Shown here: positions 36,387-51,052 of the stretch, one piece after another | How positions within the stretch are numbered: the first letter of the stretch is position 1 | Layout: each line of letters starts with the position of its first letter | Assembly: GCF_019670105.1 (NCBI RefSeq) | Contig: NZ_AP023032.1 | Span: 342,501 to 406,500 of the forward strand | Direction of reading: 5' to 3' | DNA: 64,000 bases | DNA from: Agarivorans albus | GTDB taxonomy: Bacteria; Pseudomonadota; Gammaproteobacteria; Enterobacterales; Celerinatantimonadaceae | Translations under genes and position numbers: made by a program | The notes under the pieces: generated by a model | Databases searched by the model: none | Told to the model about the DNA's origin: nothing | What the model saw: the letters and a program-made list of their open reading frames with translations, nothing else

Positions 36387-37248
36387 CGCAAAACCCTATT
36401 GGCAGTTAATGCGGGCGGACAAACCCATTGGCACTTTATTGTTGCTGTGGCCGGCTTTGTGGGCACTTTGGTTAGCCGCCGAAGGATTACCCGATTTTTC
36501 TATTTTGCTGGTGTTTGTATTAGGGGTGTTTTTTATGCGCTCGGCTGGCTGTGTGATCAATGATTTTGCCGATCGTAAAGTGGATGCTCATGTGAAACGC
36601 ACTGCTCAGCGTCCGTTGGCCACTGGAGTGGTCAGCGAGCGTGAAGCGCTCACCTTATTTTTTGGTTTGGTGGTGTTGTCGTTTCTGTTGGTACTAAGTC
36701 AAAACACCCTTACCATTTTGCTATCTTTTGCAGCCCTAGTATTGGCGGCAATTTATCCGTTTATGAAACGCTATACCCATTTACCGCAGTTGTTTCTTGG
36801 CTTGGCCTTTAGTTGGTGTATTCCCATGGCTTACGCGGCGCAAACCAACACTGTACCTGCCGAGGCGTGGTTGCTATTAGTGGCTAATGTGTGTTGGACA
36901 GTGGCCTACGATACTAAGTACGCAATGGTTGATCGTGATGACGACTTAAAAGTGGGTATTAAGTCTACCGCTATCTTATTTGGCCGTTTCGATAAACTCA
37001 TTGTGGCGCTGTTACAGGCTGCCAGTTTGTTGTGTTTGGCGCTTTTAGGTCATGTGAAGCAATTAGGTTTTATCTTTGATCTTGGTTTGCTCGCTGCAGC
37101 GGTATTGTTTGTCTATCAGCAAAAATTGATTAGGTATCGTGAGCGAGAAGCGTGTTTCCAAGCTTTTTTAAACAACAACTATGTAGGTTTGGCGGTGTTT
37201 ATAGGCATAGCCAGCCATTATGCATGGCTGGCTATTAGTGCGGCTTAA
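36370..37248 (+). CDS. ubiA: 4-hydroxybenzoate polyprenyltransferase UbiA
   Basis: A 292-residue membrane prenyltransferase with about eight helices and the two Asp-rich motifs NDFADRKVD (about 62) and [12 protein letters not shown] (about 180). It attaches the polyprenyl tail to 4-hydroxybenzoate. AAGGAG at 36358-36363 points to GTG 36370 as start (TTG 36373 possible), inside the end of ubiC. Its 3' end overlaps the convergent plsB by four bases. Confidence 0.93.
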
Positions 37249-39638
37249 GCTTCTAAATCTAACAATTCACTGATTGATTGGTACACCCCATCGGCCAGCA
37301 ATGGCGAGAGTTGCTTGAACAAACCCTCTGCCGATTGACTGTCACTTAAGCCTTGCTCGCGGATTAGTGAGAGCAAGTTGGTGGTAATGCGCTTGTCGTA
37401 ATATTCCGGCGCGTCGATATTGTGTAACTGCGCTAAACGTTGTGCGCCGGCCAATGCTTGCTGTTCTAACTCTGCACGCTCTAGGTGAGGGCGCTTGGCT
37501 AGCAATGCCGCAACAATGGCGTAGCGGTGCAAACTTTCTTGAGCCACTTGAGCTAGCAGCAACAAACGCCCACGACGTTGGCTGTCAATGTTAAAGCAAT
37601 CGCCTTGATCACTAATTAGTTTTAGTGCGGCAAATTCTTCTAAGTAGCGGTCAGCCAAGTTGCTCATGTCACTTACTTGATAACGCAGGAATAATTCACC
37701 TTTTAGCAAAGGATAAAGCTGCTCAAGTAAGGCGACTAATTGGCTACGGCACAGGCTGCGATGTTGCAATAACGCGGTGGCGATAAAGGCTGGAATAATT
37801 AGCAAATGGATAATGTTATTGCGATAGAAATTAAGCAGTACCTGCTGTTTTTCATCTAGAGCAATAATTTCGCCTAGGTAGTCGCTGCGAATTTCAAACT
37901 TGTCGAGGCTAATAGCCTGATCCAACAGTGTTTCTGCATCCACTTCCGGTAGCGTTACATGGTCACTATAAGGCACGTTTTCGATTAAAGATGTGTATAA
38001 ACTTATCTGCTTAACCAGTTGCTTGCGCGGCAGGGCTCGGTTCTCGGCGGCCAATAAAATAGTGGCGCTTAAACACAAACCATTTACCGCAGCGGCGCTG
38101 TTAATATTCACCATCAATTGATTGGAAATATCGTTAACCGCAGGTACCAACCAGTTGGGTTTTAAACCTTCTTCTGGATGTTCTCGCCACTCCGGTGCTA
38201 GTTTGTTTAAGCTTTGGTTTACATTAATCGGCTCGCCAAAGTTTACGTAGCCGTGGCCAAAGTTGCGCAATTTACGCAGCATCCCAAATAGTGAAAATAA
38301 CGACTCTTTATCTTTAGATTTGCCTTTTAACTCTTTGTAGTAAGTGCCTACTTCCATTACGTGTTCGTAACCAAAGTACACGGGAACAATGGTTACCGGG
38401 CGCTCTAAGCCTTTTAGCATGGCTTGCACGGTCATGGCTAACATGCCGGTTTTAGGTGGCAATAAACGTCCAGTGCGGCTGCGACCGCCCTCGGTAAAGT
38501 ATTCTACCGAGTAACCGCGGCTGAATAGCTGTCCTAAGTACTCTCTAAATACGGTGGAGTAGAGTTTGTTACCTTTGAAGCTGCGGCGAATAAAAAACGC
38601 GCCAGAGCGGCGAAAGAACGGACCGGCAGGCCAGAAGTTTAAGTTTACCCCCGCTGCAATGTGCGGCGGCACCATGCCTTGGTGGTATAAAACATAAGAC
38701 AGCAGTAGGTAGTCCATGTGGCTACGGTGACAAGGTGCGTAAACTATCTCATGGCCTTCTTGGGCCAGTTTACGCACTTTTTCTGCGTGGTTTACTTCAA
38801 TGCCGGAATAGATTTTGTTCCAAACCCAACTGAGTACCGCGTCGGCCATACGTAAGTTACGGTACGAGAAGTCGGCAGCAATTTCTTCTAAGTATTTTAA
38901 GGCGGCTTGGCGAGCAGCAGCCTTGTCGATGTTCTTGGCTTTTGCTTCTTCATTAATCGCTTCACGAATGGTTGCCGAAGCCAGTAGTTGCTCAAACATG
39001 TGGCGACGGTTAGGTAATTTAGGGCCGGTTGCGATCATTTGCATGCGGCTAAAGTGAATCCGAGCTACACGTGCCAGTTTGTGGCCAATACGTTTGTCGG
39101 AGCCTTGGCGTTGCGCCATGTCTTTAAGTGATACCGGTGGACTAAAACGGACTAAGTTTTCGCGGCCTTTAAAGATAACCTGCCAGGTTTTCTTTAACAC
39201 CCCTGCAGGGCGTTCTGGCTTGCCGCCCATTAAGTCGTCTACACTCTCGCGCCCCGGGTAACGGTCCCAAAACAATTTAACTGGCACTAACTGCGCGTTG
39301 TGGCTTTCGTCACTACGGTGAATGGCCAAGGCGGAGGTGAATTGCTCAATGGTTTGCTCTAGGGTTTCTCCATTGCCATCAACTAAAAAAGCTACCCGTT
39401 TATGCGCTTCGCCAGCAAACATTACCGGTTCAAAGGGATCGGGTAAGCCAAGTTCTTTACTGGCTAGCTGTAGAGTTAATACATCGGCCAATGAATGACT
39501 AGGGATCACATAAATAATCGGCTGAGTTAAATCTAAATTGAACTCAGCGATGGGATTGTCTGGGACAAATTTTCCGCGAGTAAAAAAGCCAATTATTGCT
39601 CGCAAAACGGCTAAAACTGGAGAGGGTAAATGTAACAT
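37245..39638 (-). CDS. plsB: Glycerol-3-phosphate 1-O-acyltransferase PlsB
   Basis: A 797-residue membrane-associated acyltransferase that makes lysophosphatidate, the first step of phospholipid synthesis. The HX4D motif is [16 protein letters not shown] near residues 302-307; downstream blocks include [23 protein letters not shown] and [11 protein letters not shown]. Length is usual. It is convergent with ubiA and divergent from the accessory block; in many relatives lexA lies on that side. Confidence 0.96.
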
Positions 39639-44231: not shown

Positions 44232-44846
44232 TACTTCTATACCACCAGTACGCATTACCCTAATTACCATAAATGAGTCTAATTCAGATAATGCAACTAA
44301 ATAATGAAAGTTTTTCATGTTGATGAAGCAGGCTTTACCTCTAAGATCTGTTCGATTAAAAGCTCCGAATTATAAGTCATCGTGCTTTAGTCTAAGCATC
44401 GCTTAAGGATAGAATCATTTAGAAAAATGAAGGCAGCCATTTCGTGGAATCTCTTGTAGCTTTCAATTTTAGCAAGCTTAGCGCGGCCGAGAATTCCGCT
44501 TAACAGTGAAATTACTTATAGTTTTGGTGTCAGAGATCGAACTTTTATCTATATTTTTCAATTTCTTATTTCTTATTTCTTATTTCTTATTGGTTTTTGG
44601 TTTAGGGTGAAAATAACAATTTTTGCTATGTTTGAGCGTCATGCTTTAGTGTCAAAAATCTCTTTTTTAAAACTCTTTCTAAGTCAGTTTGTCTAGGGGG
44701 ATTGCTCGCCAGTTAACCGCAACATTGCTTTTTTCTCTAAATATAGAGCCCAGCTCCATTCAATTCGTACACTGTTAATAAACGAAACGCATGCGAATGA
44801 ATGCTTAGCGATTCCAATTCGTTGGTTTCAACTTACAAAATAATTT
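44232..44846. other. 615-bp AT-rich intergenic region
   Basis: No gene is supported here. It holds a short tandem repeat at 44561-44588 and otherwise featureless AT-rich DNA. The base composition differs from the housekeeping parts of the window and is like the adjacent accessory sequence. Confidence 0.45.
44561..44588. repeat. Tandem repeat, four copies of ATTTCTT
   Basis: The seven-base unit ATTTCTT occurs four times without a mismatch. It lies in a non-coding stretch about 330 bases upstream of the homocysteine methyltransferase-family start. Such a run can vary in copy number by slippage. Confidence 0.9.
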
Positions 44847-45290: not shown

Positions 45291-45757
45291 TCACTAGGTC
45301 AACTTGAAACACGTTTTTGCCCCAAAGTTTGCTAGGTCTTCTTACGAACAACATCGGCACACACGTCTTTTACCATACCAAAACTAATGGTTTTACATCT
45401 CGACTTTTCTAGGTAACTAGAGAATTTGGTAGTAGCTTAGCCAAAAGGGTTTACGTTCTTTTTAATGTGATTTTATACAGTGTTATTTGGATTTTCAGTT
45501 TTTGCCCAATAAACTTGTTTGATCTTTGCGCGTCTTGCCTTGAGGTGGAAAAATTACAAGAGTAGTATCAATAACTTAGCTTAGTGTTGAAATAAATAAT
45601 AGGTTTATTAACTGTGCATGCGCATTTTGCCCAAAGGTGTATTGAGCCTTTTTCTTGTTTCTTCATTAAATTCAAAAGATTAAGTATGCGCGTTTTCACT
45701 GGTCTAATGAGGTAAACGCACATGCGCAATATACAAATGTTATAAGGCTAAAAGGTT
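45291..45757. other. AT-rich left flank of the cassette array
   Basis: No open frame of note and no integrase are present in these 467 bases. Three related motifs TTTTGCCCAA occur near 45316, 45500 and 45626. ATGCGC occurs three times near 45619, 45685 and 45722 just before the first cassette junction. The position is where an attI site would be expected, but the assignment is speculative. Confidence 0.4.
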
Positions 45758-46024
45758 ATGGTTAAATCATCTAAAGCAATTTTCTTAATTAGCACATTAA
45801 TCTCATTGTTAGTCTGTTCTGGTATTTTGTATATTACTTGGCAACACAACCCTCAATGCGAGTTTCATTGTAACAACCAAATAAATTGGTTAGCGTGGTT
45901 GCCTTACGGTTTGATTTCAGGTGCTTTAAGTTTTTTGTTAATTGTAGGCTTAGCTTTTGGCGCTAATACATTAATAAAAGCATTGGTTATAGCGCCATAT
46001 AACAAGGCAATTAAGCGGGACTAA
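45758..46024 (+). CDS. Cassette 1: small two-helix membrane protein, unknown
   Basis: An 88-residue protein with membrane helices at about 8-27 and 44-70 and two Cys in between (QCEFHC). The gene starts right after the first cassette junction, with AAAAGG before the ATG. Its last ten codons lie inside the attC site (R'' at 45997), a common feature of cassettes. I recognise no family; the protein is probably exposed at the inner membrane. The sequence is more AT-rich than the chromosomal genes. Confidence 0.72.
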   Translation: MVKSSKAIFLISTLISLLVCSGILYITWQHNPQCEFHCNNQINWLAWLPYGLISGALSFLLIVGLAFGANTLIKALVIAPYNKAIKRD

Positions 46025-46097
46025 AAACAGTTTGCTTAGTTTCGCTTCGCTTCACATTTTAGCAAACAATTTTTAGCCCCTTATTGGGGCGTTATAT
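45997..46097 (+). repeat. attC site 1
   Basis: R'' ATATAAC at the left, R' GTTATAT at the right. The inner arms GGGACTAAAAACAGTTTGCT and the complement of AGCAAACAATTTTTAGCCCC pair over nearly their whole length, as expected of a folded attC bottom strand. Confidence 0.88.
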
Positions 46098-46116
46098 GTA
46101 TATAGAGGAAGCAAAG

Positions 46117-46356
46117 ATGGATTTCCCTAGTAATGAAGATTGCTATGATGCAATGTACCAATTCGCTTCTTACTACATGGAAGGTGAAGTGAAAGAAAAG
46201 TGGTTGGATATAATTGTTGATGGCCTTAAAACTGGCAGAAGTGCGCCAGGGAAAGGATTTCTATACGATCTAGACAAAGCGATTAAAGTGTCTGGAAAAC
46301 CTAACATGCCAAAGCGTAAAGAGCTGTATCAGCTTATTTGTGAAGCATCAATTTAA
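46117..46356 (+). CDS. Cassette 2: small soluble protein, unknown
   Basis: A 79-residue protein without signal peptide or membrane segment, mostly helical by composition, starting MDFPSNEDCYDAMYQFASYY. GAGG eight bases upstream supports ATG 46117; an in-frame ATG at 46096 lies in the attC core. It ends just before the next attC. No family recognised. Small acidic helical proteins in cassettes can be antitoxins or phage-defence factors, but nothing here shows that. Confidence 0.7.
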   Translation: MDFPSNEDCYDAMYQFASYYMEGEVKEKWLDIIVDGLKTGRSAPGKGFLYDLDKAIKVSGKPNMPKRKELYQLICEASI

Positions 46357-46359
46357 TAC

Positions 46360-46494
46360 ACATAACAAACGCATCAAGTCACCGCTGAAAAGCGCGGTTG
46401 GGACATCAAAACTACCGGCGATTTAGTTTTGGTGCTTCGCAAATTTTAAACCAATCGCCGCTACGTTTTGCTGCCCCTTATGCGGGCGTTAGAG
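46360..46494 (+). repeat. attC site 2 (long form)
   Basis: R'' ACATAAC and R' GTTAGAG bound 135 bp, the longest attC in the array. Inner arms include GGCGATTTAGTTTTGG and CCAATCGCC. The extra length resembles the longer end of known attC sites. Confidence 0.83.
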
Positions 46495-46508
46495 TACAGG
46501 TAGGGAAA

Positions 46509-47006
46509 TTGCGTAATCGACGATTTTTCAACGTTAGTAAAGCTGAGAATGAAGCCTTAAGCGCACAGTTCTCAGCTGTGGTTTCTGAACTGGAAAGCCA
46601 TGAAGCAAGAGCCGTTTCCGTGTTTGACCATTGGCTCTCACAAAATGAAGCGCTGCGTGAATTGGACGATGTGCCTGGTTCTGTGCAGCAAGAAAGAGAT
46701 GCTCGTTTGCACCAATTTGCACTGGAGCTTACGGCTCAGTTCAATGGCTTCCTGGTGAAGTTCATCGGTCGCAATAAGCAACGCATCACTTTCAGAAAGT
46801 TCGCAAATGACCATGGGCGCGCTAAATCCGTGAAGCCCCTGTCTTACAGGTACGGAGACATGTGTCGTTTTATCGTGGTTCTGCCAGATCTTGATGCTGT
46901 TTATGTGGAAGGCAGCGACTTCACTCACCACATCTTTGGTCAGGAAAACAAATATCTGAATGCAGTTCAGCAAATCGCACAAAACACCGGGCTGCATGTA
47001 CTCTAA
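46509..47006 (+). CDS. Cassette 3: unknown soluble protein
   Basis: A 165-residue protein if translation begins at TTG 46509, just past the cassette junction and after AGGTAGGG. The open frame runs on upstream through the attC to 46398, which is not likely to be coding. It is predicted to be soluble and mixed charged, with a helical N-terminal half (ELESHEARAVSVFDHWLSQN) and a C-terminal half with VLPDLDAVYVEGSDFTHHIF. No family recognised. No signal peptide. Confidence 0.65.
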   Translation: MRNRRFFNVSKAENEALSAQFSAVVSELESHEARAVSVFDHWLSQNEALRELDDVPGSVQQERDARLHQFALELTAQFNGFLVKFIGRNKQRITFRKFANDHGRAKSVKPLSYRYGDMCRFIVVLPDLDAVYVEGSDFTHHIFGQENKYLNAVQQIAQNTGLHVL

Positions 47007-47105
47007 CAAGGCAAATCAGCAAGCACTCGTCGCTTCGCTCCTCGCGTGGACAAAGGCCACAACGCTGCGAGCCGCTGGCCTTTGCCCCTGTTTGCGGCGT
47101 TATGT
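47001..47105 (+). repeat. attC site 3
   Basis: R'' CTCTAAC, R' GTTATGT, 105 bp. Inner arms CAAAGGCCA and TGGCCTTTG are perfect. The stop codon of cassette 3 is the TAA of the R'' box. Confidence 0.87.
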
Positions 47106-47108
47106 GTA

Positions 47109-47546
47109 ATGGAAGCTTCGGTGTTAAATCATAATTCAAAGTTTCAAATAATTAACTTTATCGAACAACACAAATTAAATGGTGTTATGAATAACACTAA
47201 ATGGAATAAGCTGTTTCATGATCTTAATGAAGTCGATGAACTAATAAGTTTCAAAGTTACTTATATTGATGGTACTACTTGGCCAGAGCCAGAAGCCACT
47301 TTTCCATTTACGTCAGAGTTAGCTCAAATATGGGGTAACTTCTTGGCTCTAGAATTCATTGATATCAATGCCAAAATTAGTCACTCTAGAGGCGCTTTAC
47401 TAAACGATGAAGTAGTGGATCATATTGGTAAAATAATTCAAATATGCATTGATAACTCAGCTAAATTCTCGATAACAGAAGAAGGTGTTAGAATTTACGG
47501 GTATTTAAGACATAGCGACAGCGTCCAATTATACAATTACACATAA
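47109..47546 (+). CDS. Cassette 4: unknown soluble protein, possibly DUF6678-like
   Basis: A 145-residue protein starting ATG 47109, four bases after the R' box; an internal Met at residue 27 (MNNTKWNKLFHDL) may be the real start. The segment TKWNKLFHDLNEVDELISFK and the following YIDGTTWPEPE recall short DUF6678-type proteins, but I am not sure. No membrane segment. The stop codon lies in the R'' box of the next attC. Confidence 0.65.
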   Translation: MEASVLNHNSKFQIINFIEQHKLNGVMNNTKWNKLFHDLNEVDELISFKVTYIDGTTWPEPEATFPFTSELAQIWGNFLALEFIDINAKISHSRGALLNDEVVDHIGKIIQICIDNSAKFSITEEGVRIYGYLRHSDSVQLYNYT

Positions 47547-47643
47547 CAAGCAGTTAAAGGATTGGACGTCTAAAGTTTGGCTGACGTTCGTTCCTCACAA
47601 ATTATAGCCAAGCTTTAGCCGCCCCTTAACGTGGGCGTTATAA
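47541..47643 (+). repeat. attC site 4
   Basis: R'' ACATAAC, R' GTTATAA, 103 bp. Inner arms AAAGTTTGGCT and AGCCAAGCTTT pair with one mismatch. Confidence 0.87.
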
Positions 47644-47657
47644 GCCTAAAGGTACAT

Positions 47658-48128
47658 ATGAGTAATCTTCAGCATAAATGGATGTTCGGTGGGGCAATTC
47701 TGCTTGTTGCAATTTCAAGCCTTATGATGGCTACTGGCGTTATGAAACCTTGGAATCCAATACCAATTTATCAAGTAATTCTTGCTTGGATCGTTTCCTT
47801 TTTCTATTTGTTATTTATTCCAATAATTTACCTGATTGAATTTAAGCTAATCTCTCAAAGTAAGCACTTTCTTAAAATTGTAACGGGCTTAACATTTTTG
47901 CTTTCACTTCTAAGTATCAAATATTTTTGGGTCTCTTGGGAATACGGGTATAAATATCAAGGTGAGTTACACACTAAAATAGTAGCTATAGAAAATTTAG
48001 TTGGATTTTCTGGGGTATTAGGAATTTGCTTCTGGGCTATCAAAAAAGAGAGTCAAATCGCAGGATATGTCGCCAACTTATTATTTTTTTCTATATTAGC
48101 TTGGTGTGCATTTCCATATTTAGGCTAA
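47658..48128 (+). CDS. Cassette 5: polytopic membrane protein, unknown
   Basis: A 156-residue protein with four or five hydrophobic helices (about 13-32, 37-58, 70-88, 108-124 and 132-150). The start at 47658 is preceded by AAAGG. The profile is that of a small integral membrane protein of unknown role; no transporter or toxin motif is visible. AT-rich, as its neighbours. Confidence 0.72.
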   Translation: MSNLQHKWMFGGAILLVAISSLMMATGVMKPWNPIPIYQVILAWIVSFFYLLFIPIIYLIEFKLISQSKHFLKIVTGLTFLLSLLSIKYFWVSWEYGYKYQGELHTKIVAIENLVGFSGVLGICFWAIKKESQIAGYVANLLFFSILAWCAFPYLG

Positions 48129-48147
48129 ATGCCTTAGTGTAATCGGC

Positions 48148-48246
48148 TTATAACAAGTCGTTTAAAAGGACAAAAAACAGTTGGCTTTTGCTCCTTCGTC
48201 GCTTATTTTAGCCAACAACTTTTTGCCTCTTAACGAGGCGTTAGGT
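48148..48246 (+). repeat. attC site 5
   Basis: R'' TTATAAC, R' GTTAGGT, 99 bp. Inner arms AAAACAGTTGGCT and AGCCAACAACTTTT pair with one bulge. Confidence 0.87.
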
Positions 48247-48270
48247 ATTTATCAAGAAGGAGTCTAAATT

Positions 48271-48603
48271 TTGGTATCAGTTGTATTGTGGTTAATAGGA
48301 TTAATAGCAATTATATTTTATGGTGGAAAGAGGGTCTATGCTCTATACAAAGCAGAGAAGCCACCTAACGGAGAATTTCTTAAGCAAGGAACTATTCTAA
48401 TTTTTTACTCAACGTTAGTGGTAGGTGCGGCTCAATTTTTAAATGATGCTACAACTACTTATAATGTTAATACCCCTGAAGTTTCCCAGTTCTGGATACT
48501 TGTAGGGCTTTTTGCTTCTTACCTAAAGTATTTAGCTCCTTTTGTGTTTGCTGCAATAGGTGTAAATATGGTTTCTCATTCATTGGCAAATAAAAATACC
48601 TAA
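48271..48603 (+). CDS. Cassette 6: small membrane protein, unknown
   Basis: A 110-residue protein with three hydrophobic helices (about 2-20, 41-58, 75-98). AAGAAGGAG eight bases before TTG 48271 is a strong ribosome binding site, so TTG is the likely start codon. The last codons run into the R'' box of the next attC. No family recognised. Confidence 0.68.
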   Translation: MVSVVLWLIGLIAIIFYGGKRVYALYKAEKPPNGEFLKQGTILIFYSTLVVGAAQFLNDATTTYNVNTPEVSQFWILVGLFASYLKYLAPFVFAAIGVNMVSHSLANKNT

Positions 48604-48700
48604 CAAGGCCATTAAGAGCGGACCCGCAACAGCTTGCTCGGTTCCGCTTCGCTTCACATTTTAGCAAGCTATTACTTGTCTGCTTATGGCGGCGTTAAGT
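48598..48700 (+). repeat. attC site 6
   Basis: R'' ACCTAAC, R' GTTAAGT, 103 bp. Inner arms CAGCTTGCT and AGCAAGCT. Its loop shares CGCTTCGCTTCACATTTTAG with attC site 1, so the two are recent relatives. Confidence 0.87.
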
Positions 48701-49002
48701 GCAAAGCCCCAAAGTCTCAAAAAACGTAGAGCTTGGGTAAATAAATTGCAGTATGTATCCATTCGCAAAATGGGCGGGTGCTTCAACAGGTTCGGTGTTC
48801 ATACAGCCTGCTAAAGCGAGATGGTGGTGCCCAGGCATAGCCAATCGCATTCCAAAGGTTGGGTAGTTAGATCCTCCACAATTCGTCGTTGTAGGTTGGC
48901 TCAATCTATCAAATACGTGCGGTATTTGTAGTGCTTTCAAATAGTAGGTTTTACCTGCATACTGCGGTCAAAAGGGCAGTTTTTTGTTCAATGGTATTGT
49001 CC
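48694..49002. other. Cassette 7: no convincing plus-strand gene; antisense frame
   Basis: The cassette body is about 310 bp. On the plus strand the only start-bearing frame is 37 codons (48753-48866). On the minus strand a frame of 81 codons (48695-48940) fills most of the unit. From its internal Met30 it reads MRLAMPGHHHLALAGCMNTE, which looks superficially like a short lipoprotein signal with LAGC. Neither frame has a good ribosome binding site. It may be a reversed gene, a promoter or RNA cassette, or decayed. Confidence 0.4.
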
Positions 49003-49131
49003 ACTTAACAAAGCCATCTTGCATCGCCCGCAAGCGGGCTGGACAAATTTTCCGTGGTTCGTTTTGTGCTTTTCGCTTACGCTGGCACAAATCAAACCAC
49101 TCCAAATTTGCCGCAAATGGCGGCGTTATGT
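49003..49131 (+). repeat. attC site 7
   Basis: R'' ACTTAAC, R' GTTATGT, 129 bp. The arms GGTTCGTTTTGTGC and GCACAAATCAAACC enclose a short loop. Longer than most others here. Confidence 0.82.
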
Positions 49132-49156
49132 GTATAAGTACAGGAGTTATATCAAA

Positions 49157-49339
49157 GTGAATGACGCAAATATCGAAATGGTCTTGGCTTCAATTATTAA
49201 TAAATCTAAAAAAATAGAATACAACGATAATAATGGTGAAATATATATTCACTTGAATAACTTGGCAGTGGGGCAACGTGACTGCATCGTGACACTAGGT
49301 CAATTAAAAACGAGTATCGAATTATCATTAAAAAATTAG
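49157..49339 (+). CDS. Cassette 8: small unknown protein
   Basis: A 60-residue soluble protein from GTG 49157, with AGGAG ten bases before it. Composition is Asn/Ile/Lys-rich, and it reads NDANIEMVLASIINKSKKIE near the start, with an amphipathic helix then short strands. No family recognised. An upstream ATG in the R' box is out of frame, which supports the GTG. Confidence 0.55.
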   Translation: MNDANIEMVLASIINKSKKIEYNDNNGEIYIHLNNLAVGQRDCIVTLGQLKTSIELSLKN

Positions 49340-49356
49340 ATTTGTTTGCCAAACAC

Positions 49357-49456
49357 ACATAACAAACAAATCAACGAATGGACTTAAAAAGCTTGGCTCA
49401 GCTCGTGGCTCGCTTTAATAGCCAAACTTTTTAAGCCCGTTATTTGGGCGTTATGA
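49357..49456 (+). repeat. attC site 8
   Basis: R'' ACATAAC, R' GTTATGA, 100 bp. Arms CTTAAAAAGCTTGGCT and AGCCAAACTTTTTAAG pair well. Confidence 0.87.
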
Positions 49457-50110
49457 ATCAGGTGGAAATGGATAAAGTAATTGTTTCAATTTATCTTTGG
49501 ATAAAGAGGTACACGCATCCACTCAGGGTTTTGGGAGGCGTGTTTTTTGGTTTCGCATTATTAGCTGGGGTATTTTTGGATTGCGGGTAAAGAGATTGAG
49601 CCAGTAGCGTTCCTACTTGGTCTTTTATCATCGCTATTCCTCGCTAGTCCTTCGGTTGCTCAATACTTTGTACCAGACAGAAAAGCTGTACGTGACATGA
49701 CTTTTGAAGAGGTACTTGATTTTATAACTACAACAGATGCGAAAGTTGACTGGAAAGGAATATCTACGGATTGGTCAAGTGAATATTTCCTAACTGAAGA
49801 CCCACGCCTTAGGTTTAGAATGAACTATCTCGAAGATGGTTTACAAAATAGCAATTTTGTTGAGCCTTGGGCGAATTGTCATGCAGATACTAAAGCTCGA
49901 GGTTATTGGTGTGATTTGTATTATGACGGCTCTTTTATCGATAGGTTGATCTTAGTCGCTGTTGATGGTGGTCGTTCCTTACTTCCAGCTCCTGAAGCTG
50001 GAACACTTGAAGTTCTAAAATACAATTATTGTGTTGCTGAAATACACGATACATTGAACACTCTGACAAAGTACATGAAACGTTCAAAGCTAGCTGTACG
50101 AGATTCATAA
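49453..50110 (+). pseudogene. Cassette 9: frameshifted two-helix membrane protein gene
   Basis: From ATG 49453 the frame reads through one hydrophobic helix (VLGGVFFGFALLAG) and stops at 49588-49590. The next frame has no stop from 49565 on and continues VAFLLGLLSSLFLASPSVAQ as a second helix, then a 140-residue soluble domain to 50110. Dropping one T from the T5 run at 49573-49577 joins them into about 218 residues. The downstream part alone could start at ATG 49697 (137 residues). This is a natural mutation, a sequencing error or programmed slippage; the first is most likely. No family recognised. Confidence 0.7.
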
Positions 50111-50140
50111 CAAGGCGTTAACACCAACTGTTCCATACTT
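50105..50140 (+). repeat. attC site 9, truncated
   Basis: R'' TCATAAC is followed by AAGGCGTTAACACCAACTG, the left half of an attC, but no right arm or GTTRRRY partner at a fitting distance follows. It marks the right end of the array and is probably not recombinable. The right limit is approximate. Confidence 0.6.
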
Positions 50141-50361
50141 TCGCTAATCCGAAACACCATTGAATAAGTCATCACCCAAACACGCTTTTGTCCAAAAGTG
50201 AGTTAGACTCTTTGTATCCTTCTTTTACCCTAACTTCTATCTATTTGTGAAGTACGTCCCTAAATATGGGGTGTAGTTTTAAAGTAGCGAAAAGAATTCC
50301 AAAGAAACTGAAACCTACAATAAGTCACTGATTTAGATAAATCCTTGCTTCATTGCTCATG
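50141..50361. other. Gap between the array end and the lexA promoter
   Basis: AT-rich DNA without a gene. It contains one copy, near 50184, of the TTTTGYCCAAA motif also seen on the left flank of the array. The lexA promoter lies at the right end. Confidence 0.4.
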
Positions 50362-50404: not shown

Positions 50405-51052
50405 ATGAAGCCCTTAACACCCCGTCAAACAGAAGTATTTGAATTAATTCGTCGTCATATTTCCGAAACGGGTATGCCGCCAACCCGTGCAGAGATCGCT
50501 AAAGAATTAGGCTTTCGTTCCGCTAATGCGGCAGAAGAGCACCTAAGAGCACTTGCTAAGAAAGGGGCTATTGAGATGATCCCTGGTGCTTCGCGTGGTA
50601 TTCGCATTAGTGAAGAGTATTTGCCAGCCAGCGCTAATGAGCCAGTAGCCGAAGACTTAGAACCCGGTTTACCTTTAATTGGCCAAGTGGCTGCCGGCGA
50701 GCCTATTTTGGCGCAGGAGCATGTAGAATCGCACTATGCGGTAGATGCTAACTTGTTTAATCCTCATGCTGATTATTTACTGCGGGTGCAGGGAATGAGT
50801 ATGAAAGACATCGGCATTATGGATGGTGACTTGTTAGCAGTGCACAAAACCAATGATGTTCATAATGGACAAGTAGTGGTGGCACGTTTAGAAGACGATG
50901 TTACAGTTAAGCGTTTTGAGCGCGACGGTAAAATGGTTTACTTGCACCCAGAGAATGAAGAGCTCTCAACTATTGAAGTTGATTTAGAATATCAAAGCAT
51001 CGAAATCGAAGGCTTGGCGGTAGGTATTATTCGCACTGCCGATTGGATGTAA
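50405..51052 (+). CDS. lexA: SOS repressor LexA
   Basis: A 215-residue repressor: N-terminal winged helix-turn-helix (about 1-70), a linker, then the S24 autoprotease domain. Self-cleavage falls between Ala97 and Gly98 (VAAGEP); the catalytic dyad is Ser132 (GMSMKDIG) and Lys169 (VTVKRF). It is a little longer than E. coli LexA because of the linker. Twin SOS boxes precede it. In E. coli dinF follows directly; here cox genes come next and a DinF-like gene lies 8 kb on. Confidence 0.97.

Follow-up and report, generated by a model that had tools for sequence, protein, structure and literature searches.

The window analyzed here is a 64-kb stretch of the Agarivorans albus chromosome (positions 342501 to 406500 of a 4.79-Mb genome in a single contig, designated G000), and it contains an array of integron cassettes next to lexA. 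The array is enclosed by a conserved left end (LE) and a conserved right end (RE), each with a 28-bp near-palindromic core. It is probably the cargo of a site-specifically inserted element of approximately 4.9 kb (45303-50208 in window coordinates), an integrase-less derivative or relative of a mobile integron at a hotspot before lexA. A first-pass annotation, made from the sequence alone, had described the array as an orphan lying between plsB and lexA. That placement is loose, with several open reading frames (ORFs) separating the gene it called plsB (37245-39638) from the array.

The cassette array

Eight attC sites in a single orientation delimit nine cassettes at 45739-50116, as follows. 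All of the sites listed were recovered both by the attC model R3 and by a profile built from non-window sites.

45739..46090, + strand: cassette 1; ORF 45758-46024 (88 aa), hydrophobic by eye, with only subthreshold Pfam matches
45994..46097, + strand: attC 1 (R3, 104.2 bits)
46091..46487, + strand: cassette 2; ORF 46117-46356
46357..46494, + strand: attC 2
46488..47098, + strand: cassette 3; ORF 46509-47006
46998..47105, + strand: attC 3
47099..47636, + strand: cassette 4; ORF 47109-47546, DUF6678 (PF20383, E value of 2.4e-25)
47538..47643, + strand: attC 4
47637..48239, + strand: cassette 5; ORF 47658-48128, hydrophobic by eye
48145..48246, + strand: attC 5, 91% identical over 97 bp to an attC site of the intI2 array
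48240..48693, + strand: cassette 6; ORF 48271-48603, hydrophobic by eye
48595..48700, + strand: attC 6
48694..49124, + strand: cassette 7; no ORF of at least 60 aa inside it in the cassette direction
49000..49131, + strand: attC 7
49125..49449, + strand: cassette 8; ORF 49157-49339
49354..49456, + strand: attC 8
49450..50116, + strand: cassette 9; the frame looks split (49453-49590 and 49697-50110), the second part matching PADLOC PDC-S50

The eight sites had been called attC-like by the first-pass annotation, and they indeed score as attC. A profile hidden Markov model (HMM) built from nine non-window attC sites ranked exactly these eight as its top matches in the 64 kb, with E values from 5.9e-20 to 0.0017; the next match had an E value of 0.31. 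Model R3, whose training partly included window sites, detected all eight at 42 to 104 bits. With the structure positioned manually according to known attC architecture, the stem pairs covaried across 17 sites (score of 0.340 versus a shuffled mean of 0.108, and no more than 0.093 with slid partners), and within the eight window rows alone 83.0% of cells paired, versus 32 to 40% after sliding. RNAalifold recovered just a local five-pair stem from the attC alignment, and no Rfam family reached its gathering threshold in the window. Cassette starts matched their own ends as the cassette rule predicts, with a mean run of 6.1 versus 1.9 for non-own ends, a value reached in none of 20,000 permutations. 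Hand-written attC finders had been dropped in favor of R3 and the non-window HMM; their matches were mostly due to chance, partly because an integrated attC derives its R'' and its R' from different cassettes.

The array is also AT rich, as previously noted (GC content of 0.395 versus 0.449 for the remainder of the window), and its content remains mostly unrecognized. Among eight cassette ORFs or ORF pieces, one passed a Pfam cutoff (DUF6678) and one matched a PADLOC candidate-defense model (PDC-S50, covering part of the cassette 9 product at 49697-50107, with an E value of 1.7e-7). The ORFs of the unit are all short, and no recombinase was found among them with Pfam.

The absence of an IntI-type gene from the 64 kb was borne out. 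Nine matches to TIGR02249 were obtained in the whole genome at an E value of ≤1, none of them within 342501-406500. Two exceeded the cutoff, at 3.344 and 3.898 Mb, so the genome is not free of integrases, and both of these intI genes have an array. At 3.895 to 3.899 Mb, intI2 is adjacent to attI and an array and thus forms a complete integron, which the window array does not. By definition, with at least two attC sites (here, eight, with nine cassettes) and no integron integrase nearby, the window array is a cluster of attC sites lacking integron integrases (CALIN), and the earlier term "orphan array" holds to that extent. Unlike a typical CALIN, however, it is bracketed by the conserved ends of a complete integron, and the genome carries two intI genes. 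Because LE lies on its left and RE follows the supposed half site, both conserved, the term is too narrow: a defined element carrying the array as cargo is a better reading than a loose orphan.

Further attC sites without intI occur in this genome at G000:3090387-3094484, 1124567-1126709, 2137706-2139052, and 3556031-3557036, in addition to singletons. In total, 16 of 32 attC matches lay outside the window array and both integrons, with 150 of 1,304 candidates scored.

Conserved ends and related integrons

The proposed element would consist of an L-type core and the left end, a degraded integrase-promoter/attI region, the nine cassettes, and the right end with an R-type core. The features outside the cassettes are as follows.

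45303..45493, + strand: LE; 97.8 bits with model R2, which this copy helped to train
45307..45334, + strand: L-type core, center TTTTGCCCC; 30.8 bits with the core weight matrix, this copy being outside the training set
45494..45738, + strand: diverged region; by alignment, siblings have intI-upstream DNA with a LexA box and attI here
50106..50119, + strand: last attC, collapsed to its outer bases and fused to the right end (from the sequence; attC matches abut RE in sibling elements)
50114..50208, + strand: RE; 95.1 bits with model R1, which this copy helped to train
50178..50205, + strand: R-type core, center TTTTGTCCA; 41.5 bits with the core weight matrix, this copy being in the training set
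50405..51052, + strand: lexA, next to the insertion hotspot (named by eye from the sequence, with no family-library test)

The first-pass annotation had found no integron features on the left side of the array, which proved incorrect. The sequence at 45303-45493 matches DNA beside other arrays and just past the 3' end of intI2 (for example, 76% identity over 178 bp by blastn to locus L070). Its outer ~120 bp are common to intI2 integrons and intI-less elements, while its inner part is common to intI-less elements. On the right, the half site at 50106-50119 is indeed an attC remnant, but one in which the last attC has collapsed onto the conserved right-end element. Over 91 bp, the window RE shared 97% identity with the DNA that follows the final attC of the intI2 array, and an alignment of 15 RE copies had a mean identity of 77%. 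In the fetched loci, 13 of the 25 RE matches of at least 40 bits began no more than 10 bp from the point where an attC match ended.

The RE, LE, and attC models were partly trained on window copies, and the LE model (A2) was made from copies found beside REs or intI. At an E value of ≤0.01, RE matches were obtained in 12 of 13 genomes and LE matches in 8; 27 RE copies in 8 genomes reached an E value of ≤1e-9. Around the window array, the two ends are on the same strand (genome positions 387803-387920 for LE and 392614-392708 for RE). The same LE and RE bracket the second integron of this chromosome, in the order LE-intI2-attI-cassettes-RE at 3.895 Mb. Apart from these two elements, the genome gave only three weak RE matches (23.4, 20.6, and 18.7 bits), and no LE match or strong RE match was detected at its further attC groups. 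Among 13 strong LE matches (E value of ≤1e-9), 10 had an RE no more than 20 kb downstream on the same strand, compared with 0 on the opposite strand and 1 upstream. Of the 28 RE entries used for this pairing, 27 had an E value of ≤1e-9, and the remaining one (G005 C30, 3.7e-6) is one of the ten partners. Eight of the 13 strong LE matches had trained the LE model and came from near arrays; two of the other five were paired.

LE and RE also bracket arrays elsewhere in Agarivorans (the genus to which genomes G000 to G006 belong) and in Alginatibacterium (G007), a member of the same family. The LE-intI-attI-cassettes-RE type was found at 3.895 Mb in G000 and at 1.675 and 3.943 Mb in G002. In five RE-ended intI-less arrays (two in G007 and a single one in each of G002, G003, and G005), approximately 270 bp of the DNA upstream of intI is retained, with a LexA box (CTG-N10-CAG) and an attI that ends in CCTACTTAGC^GTTA; four of the five have an LE match. 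In Alginatibacterium, an LE-RE element holds only an N-terminal remnant of intI. Up to approximately position 45493, the window copy resembles the integrase-less kind; beyond that point, its attI region has diverged. The end of that region (CGCACATGCG...^GTTA) weakly resembles the attI palindrome, which is clear in the five sibling arrays. The window array is thus best read, at the sequence level, as an integrase-less member of the LE-RE integron family that is more decayed than its siblings. Its membership in this family of end-defined, apparently mobile integron elements is well supported by sequence and sets apart what is otherwise an ordinary array. Its cassettes would have been loaded by an integron integrase, either in cis before the loss of intI or in trans afterwards.

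Right ends were also encountered on plasmids. On Shewanella xiamenensis pXY8M34-1, an attC match (28.5 bits) abutting an RE match (32.0 bits) comes after an annotated integron integrase and its array, and on Shewanella sp. LC6 pSX1_LC6 an attC match (24.2 bits) abuts a weak RE match (18.0 bits). No LE was detected on either plasmid stretch. IntI relatives in other metagenome-assembled genomes (L154 to L157) had neither an RE nor an LE match. Among the matches listed in a literature search of open-access PubMed Central articles, judged mostly at the level of the listing, nothing on these ends or on the core letters was apparent.

Cores, locus comparisons, and a candidate recombinase

The 28-bp cores begin with AAC and end with GTT. 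Their consensus, drawn by eye, reads TAACNCGNTTTTGCCCCAAANNGNGTTA for left cores and TAACNCGNTTTTGTCCAAAANNGNGTTA for right cores, and their centers are mostly constant (TGCCCC and TGTCCA, respectively). A weight matrix was derived from 15 cores of the fetched loci, including the R-type but not the L-type core of the window. At a threshold of 12 bits, only two cores were present in the 64 kb, one at each end of the array. Scanning 756 kb of fetched loci yielded 122 matches of at least 13 bits versus 7 in shuffled sequence, a count in which some places figure more than once, as the loci overlap in part and were partly fetched for (weak) LE or RE ends. A pattern search allowing one mismatch was abandoned for the matrix, as it returned mostly chance matches (70 versus 60 in the control).

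Cores also occur away from the arrays in this genome. R-type cores are present at L120 3940, L121 3896, and L122 3423, each in a 7-kb stretch that lacks an L-type core, and are possible empty attachment sites. A small module lies between two L-type cores at L124 3501-3790 (G000:1800501-1800790) and is 96% identical over 266 bp to G001 DNA upstream of lexA. The left flank of the window element (44401-44703) is 62% similar to G001 DNA upstream of lexA that ends in a 16.6-bit core.

In comparisons among relatives, homology was interrupted at the cores, at both borders for two loci and at a single border for lexA. At lexA, identity among five Agarivorans species was 76 to 88% to the right of the core and 54 to 62% to its left (null mean of 0.58 and maximum of 0.62). 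These five are the genomes of the seven in the genus whose lexA flank reaches the core, leaving out G003 and G005. Homology between the window and four relatives starts within its R-type core, and the segment 41600-50336 is absent in G003. For the window unit itself, only this right-border break was seen. At the intI2 locus, G004 carries another core-bounded unit in place of the integron, with flanks 90 to 95% identical up to the cores:

L143 13095-14857 (G004 C4): core-bounded unit whose ORFs were recognized as XRE-like and Fic-like by eye

At a further locus, a 3.2-kb unit in G003 occupies the place of approximately 19 kb in G004, which includes both recombinase modules described below and several cores; up to the cores, the flanks are 85 to 92% identical. 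G006 also has the 3.2-kb unit, at 83 to 85% identity over two stretches (1,660 and 671 bp) with an unaligned middle, and G002 and G007, which belong to two genera, share a 1,564-bp unit at 95.2% identity. For neither unit do the fetched flanks align. By comparison only, these patterns show exchanges between units at the cores. Whole elements may accordingly be pictured as moving by recombination at the 28-bp cores, with the spot before lexA as one hotspot.

A candidate for the enzyme was found in G004, where two modules encode a short (198-aa) tyrosine recombinase (PF00589, E value of 5.9e-18) with HxxR, H, and Y residues visible by eye. The two module copies are near-identical from the center of the R-type core to the center of the L-type core (96% over 785 bp, RE included), and the alignment ends there. 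Relatives of the recombinase (E value of ≤1e-15) were present in 7 of 60 genomes searched, several of them broken, and on plasmids of Vibrio, Shewanella, and Pseudoalteromonas, among others; none was found in viral contigs. An integrase gene beside its own attachment site is the usual arrangement. A core of at least 12 bits lay within 300 bp of the recombinase gene at 10 of 14 loci (9 genomic and 5 plasmid; two of the ten cores scored 12.1 and 12.8 bits), compared with none of 46 control loci and none of 300 random placements. The plasmid loci examined were five (H2, H3, H4, H5, and H11) of 1,093 records with a recombinase relative, 12 being among the matches listed; at one plasmid locus (L216), no core was present within 300 bp of the gene. 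A solitary tyrosine recombinase of ~200 aa, usually encoded beside a core, would thus be the best candidate for the mover, and excision and integration at the cores would be its work.

Several observations weigh against this interpretation. Strong LE matches were restricted to 4 of 13 genomes (G000, G002, G005, and G007), compared with 8 for strong RE matches, and three of the 13 strong LE matches had no RE partner, one of them at a contig end. The G003 array with an attI has an RE and no LE match. At lexA, an L-type core was present in only three of the five species; the G004 unit at the intI2 locus gave weak LE and RE scores (19.0 and 17.3 bits), and the left border of the unit shared by G002 and G007 is a degenerate core. 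In the window, no CTG-N10-CAG LexA box was found at 45420-45520, and attI is not convincingly recognizable. Neither excision nor a circle nor an empty site was observed. The limited distribution of strong LE matches, the pairing of only two of the five LE matches outside the training set, and the G003 array lowered our confidence slightly. Finally, of the candidate recombinase, the host genome has no more than a fragment, with a match to 46 of 213 residues. If that enzyme is the mover, the window copy would therefore now be immobile in this host, and its present mobility is doubtful. Family membership of the array is well supported by these sequence comparisons, while the movement of the element and the enzyme behind it are inferred.

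Competing explanations and implications

The most obvious alternative is that the array is an ordinary CALIN, either a decayed integron fragment or cassettes dropped by IntI at secondary sites, with flanking repeats that are unrelated dispersed repeats. CALIN-like attC groups without LE or strong RE do exist in the same genome, which also counts against the interpretation favored here, and RE starts at a G^TT that an integrase could use. However, LE and RE bracket both the window array and the intI2 integron, and locus breakpoints and unit boundaries fall at cores even where the cargo is unrelated to integrons. We therefore regard this explanation as unlikely.

It also appears rather improbable that the units are moved in trans on their cores by recombinases of the type found in strand-biased circularizing integrative elements (SEs), namely, IntA, Tfp, IntB, and Srap. 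Gene quartets of SE-like size and order (by eye) do occur near cores or the short recombinase:

L189 1778-6887: SE-like quartet (Alginatibacterium)
L190 3913-9579: SE-like quartet (Alginatibacterium)
L217 8797-13789: SE-like quartet (Shewanella plasmid)
L219 8096-13664: SE-like quartet (Shewanella plasmid)

No core of at least 8 bits was present within 1 kb of the intA-side border at L189 or L190, however. SEs share with the present units an occurrence in marine Gammaproteobacteria, tyrosine recombinases, and selected target sites (PMC10214605, PMC9345347), and they are a different type of element, with four genes and a varying 6-bp footprint (PMC10214605, PMC9345347, PMC10782965). The attB sites of SE-6945 and SE-6283 are described there as lacking an inverted repeat and as leaving a varying 6-bp footprint (PMC9345347, PMC10214605). 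In contrast, the window unit lacks intA-tfp-intB-srap, and in place of C/C' repeats whose 6-bp footprint changes from one insertion to another, it has near-palindromic cores with mostly constant centers.

A third explanation, that IntI itself recombines the cores, is very unlikely. The cores have the AAC and GTT outer ends of simple integron sites, and intI-bearing family members exist, but homology breaks in the core center and not at GTT. Moreover, core-bounded units occur in genomes without an intI match at an E value of ≤1e-60 (G001 and G007) and with non-integron cargo. In a fourth explanation, LE and RE are mere flanks of a single ancestral integron of the chromosome that homologous recombination duplicated or moved. 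This would agree with their position around the complete intI2 integron, but it is highly improbable given units located where the fetched flanks fail to align and the presence of similar cores around unrelated cargo.

Among other known systems, mobile integrons flanked by miniature inverted-repeat transposable elements (integron mobilization units) carry an integron or cassette array flanked by two defined ends, neither of which encodes the mover. The window array is likewise carried between two defined ends without an encoded mover, but these ends are near-palindromic cores in direct orientation, and no insertion sequence inverted repeats or target duplication was noticed, by eye only. Cis-mobilizable and integrative mobilizable elements (CIMEs/IMEs) have attL- and attR-like flanks, often lack their own integrase, and may stand several in a row at one locus. 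The core-bounded units resemble them in all three respects; they differ in their small cargo (about 0.9 to 15 kb), which includes whole integrons, and in occupying several loci per genome. CIMEs/IMEs are named in PMC10214605.

If the array is indeed the cargo of an LE-RE element, a wider proposal can be made, though tentatively. Marine Gammaproteobacteria may harbor an undescribed class of small, mostly non-autonomous integrative units, defined by L- and R-type cores with subterminal motifs, moved in trans by the solitary ~200-aa tyrosine recombinase, and taking up integrons as cargo. Such a class would give rise to complete mobile integrons as well as to mini-integrons that have no integrase but retain attI and travel as units. 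The usual interpretation of CALINs is that they are decayed integrons; part of those in these bacteria would instead be mobile elements and not debris. With cassettes that are mostly uncharacterized, it is the ends of the array that are of interest. LE, RE, and the cores would provide a signature for finding such units in existing genomes, so that the spread of arrays without intI becomes testable. For the cassettes themselves, the units would constitute a second route of movement, independent of an integrase in cis or of a classical transposon, and would link chromosomal arrays to plasmids.

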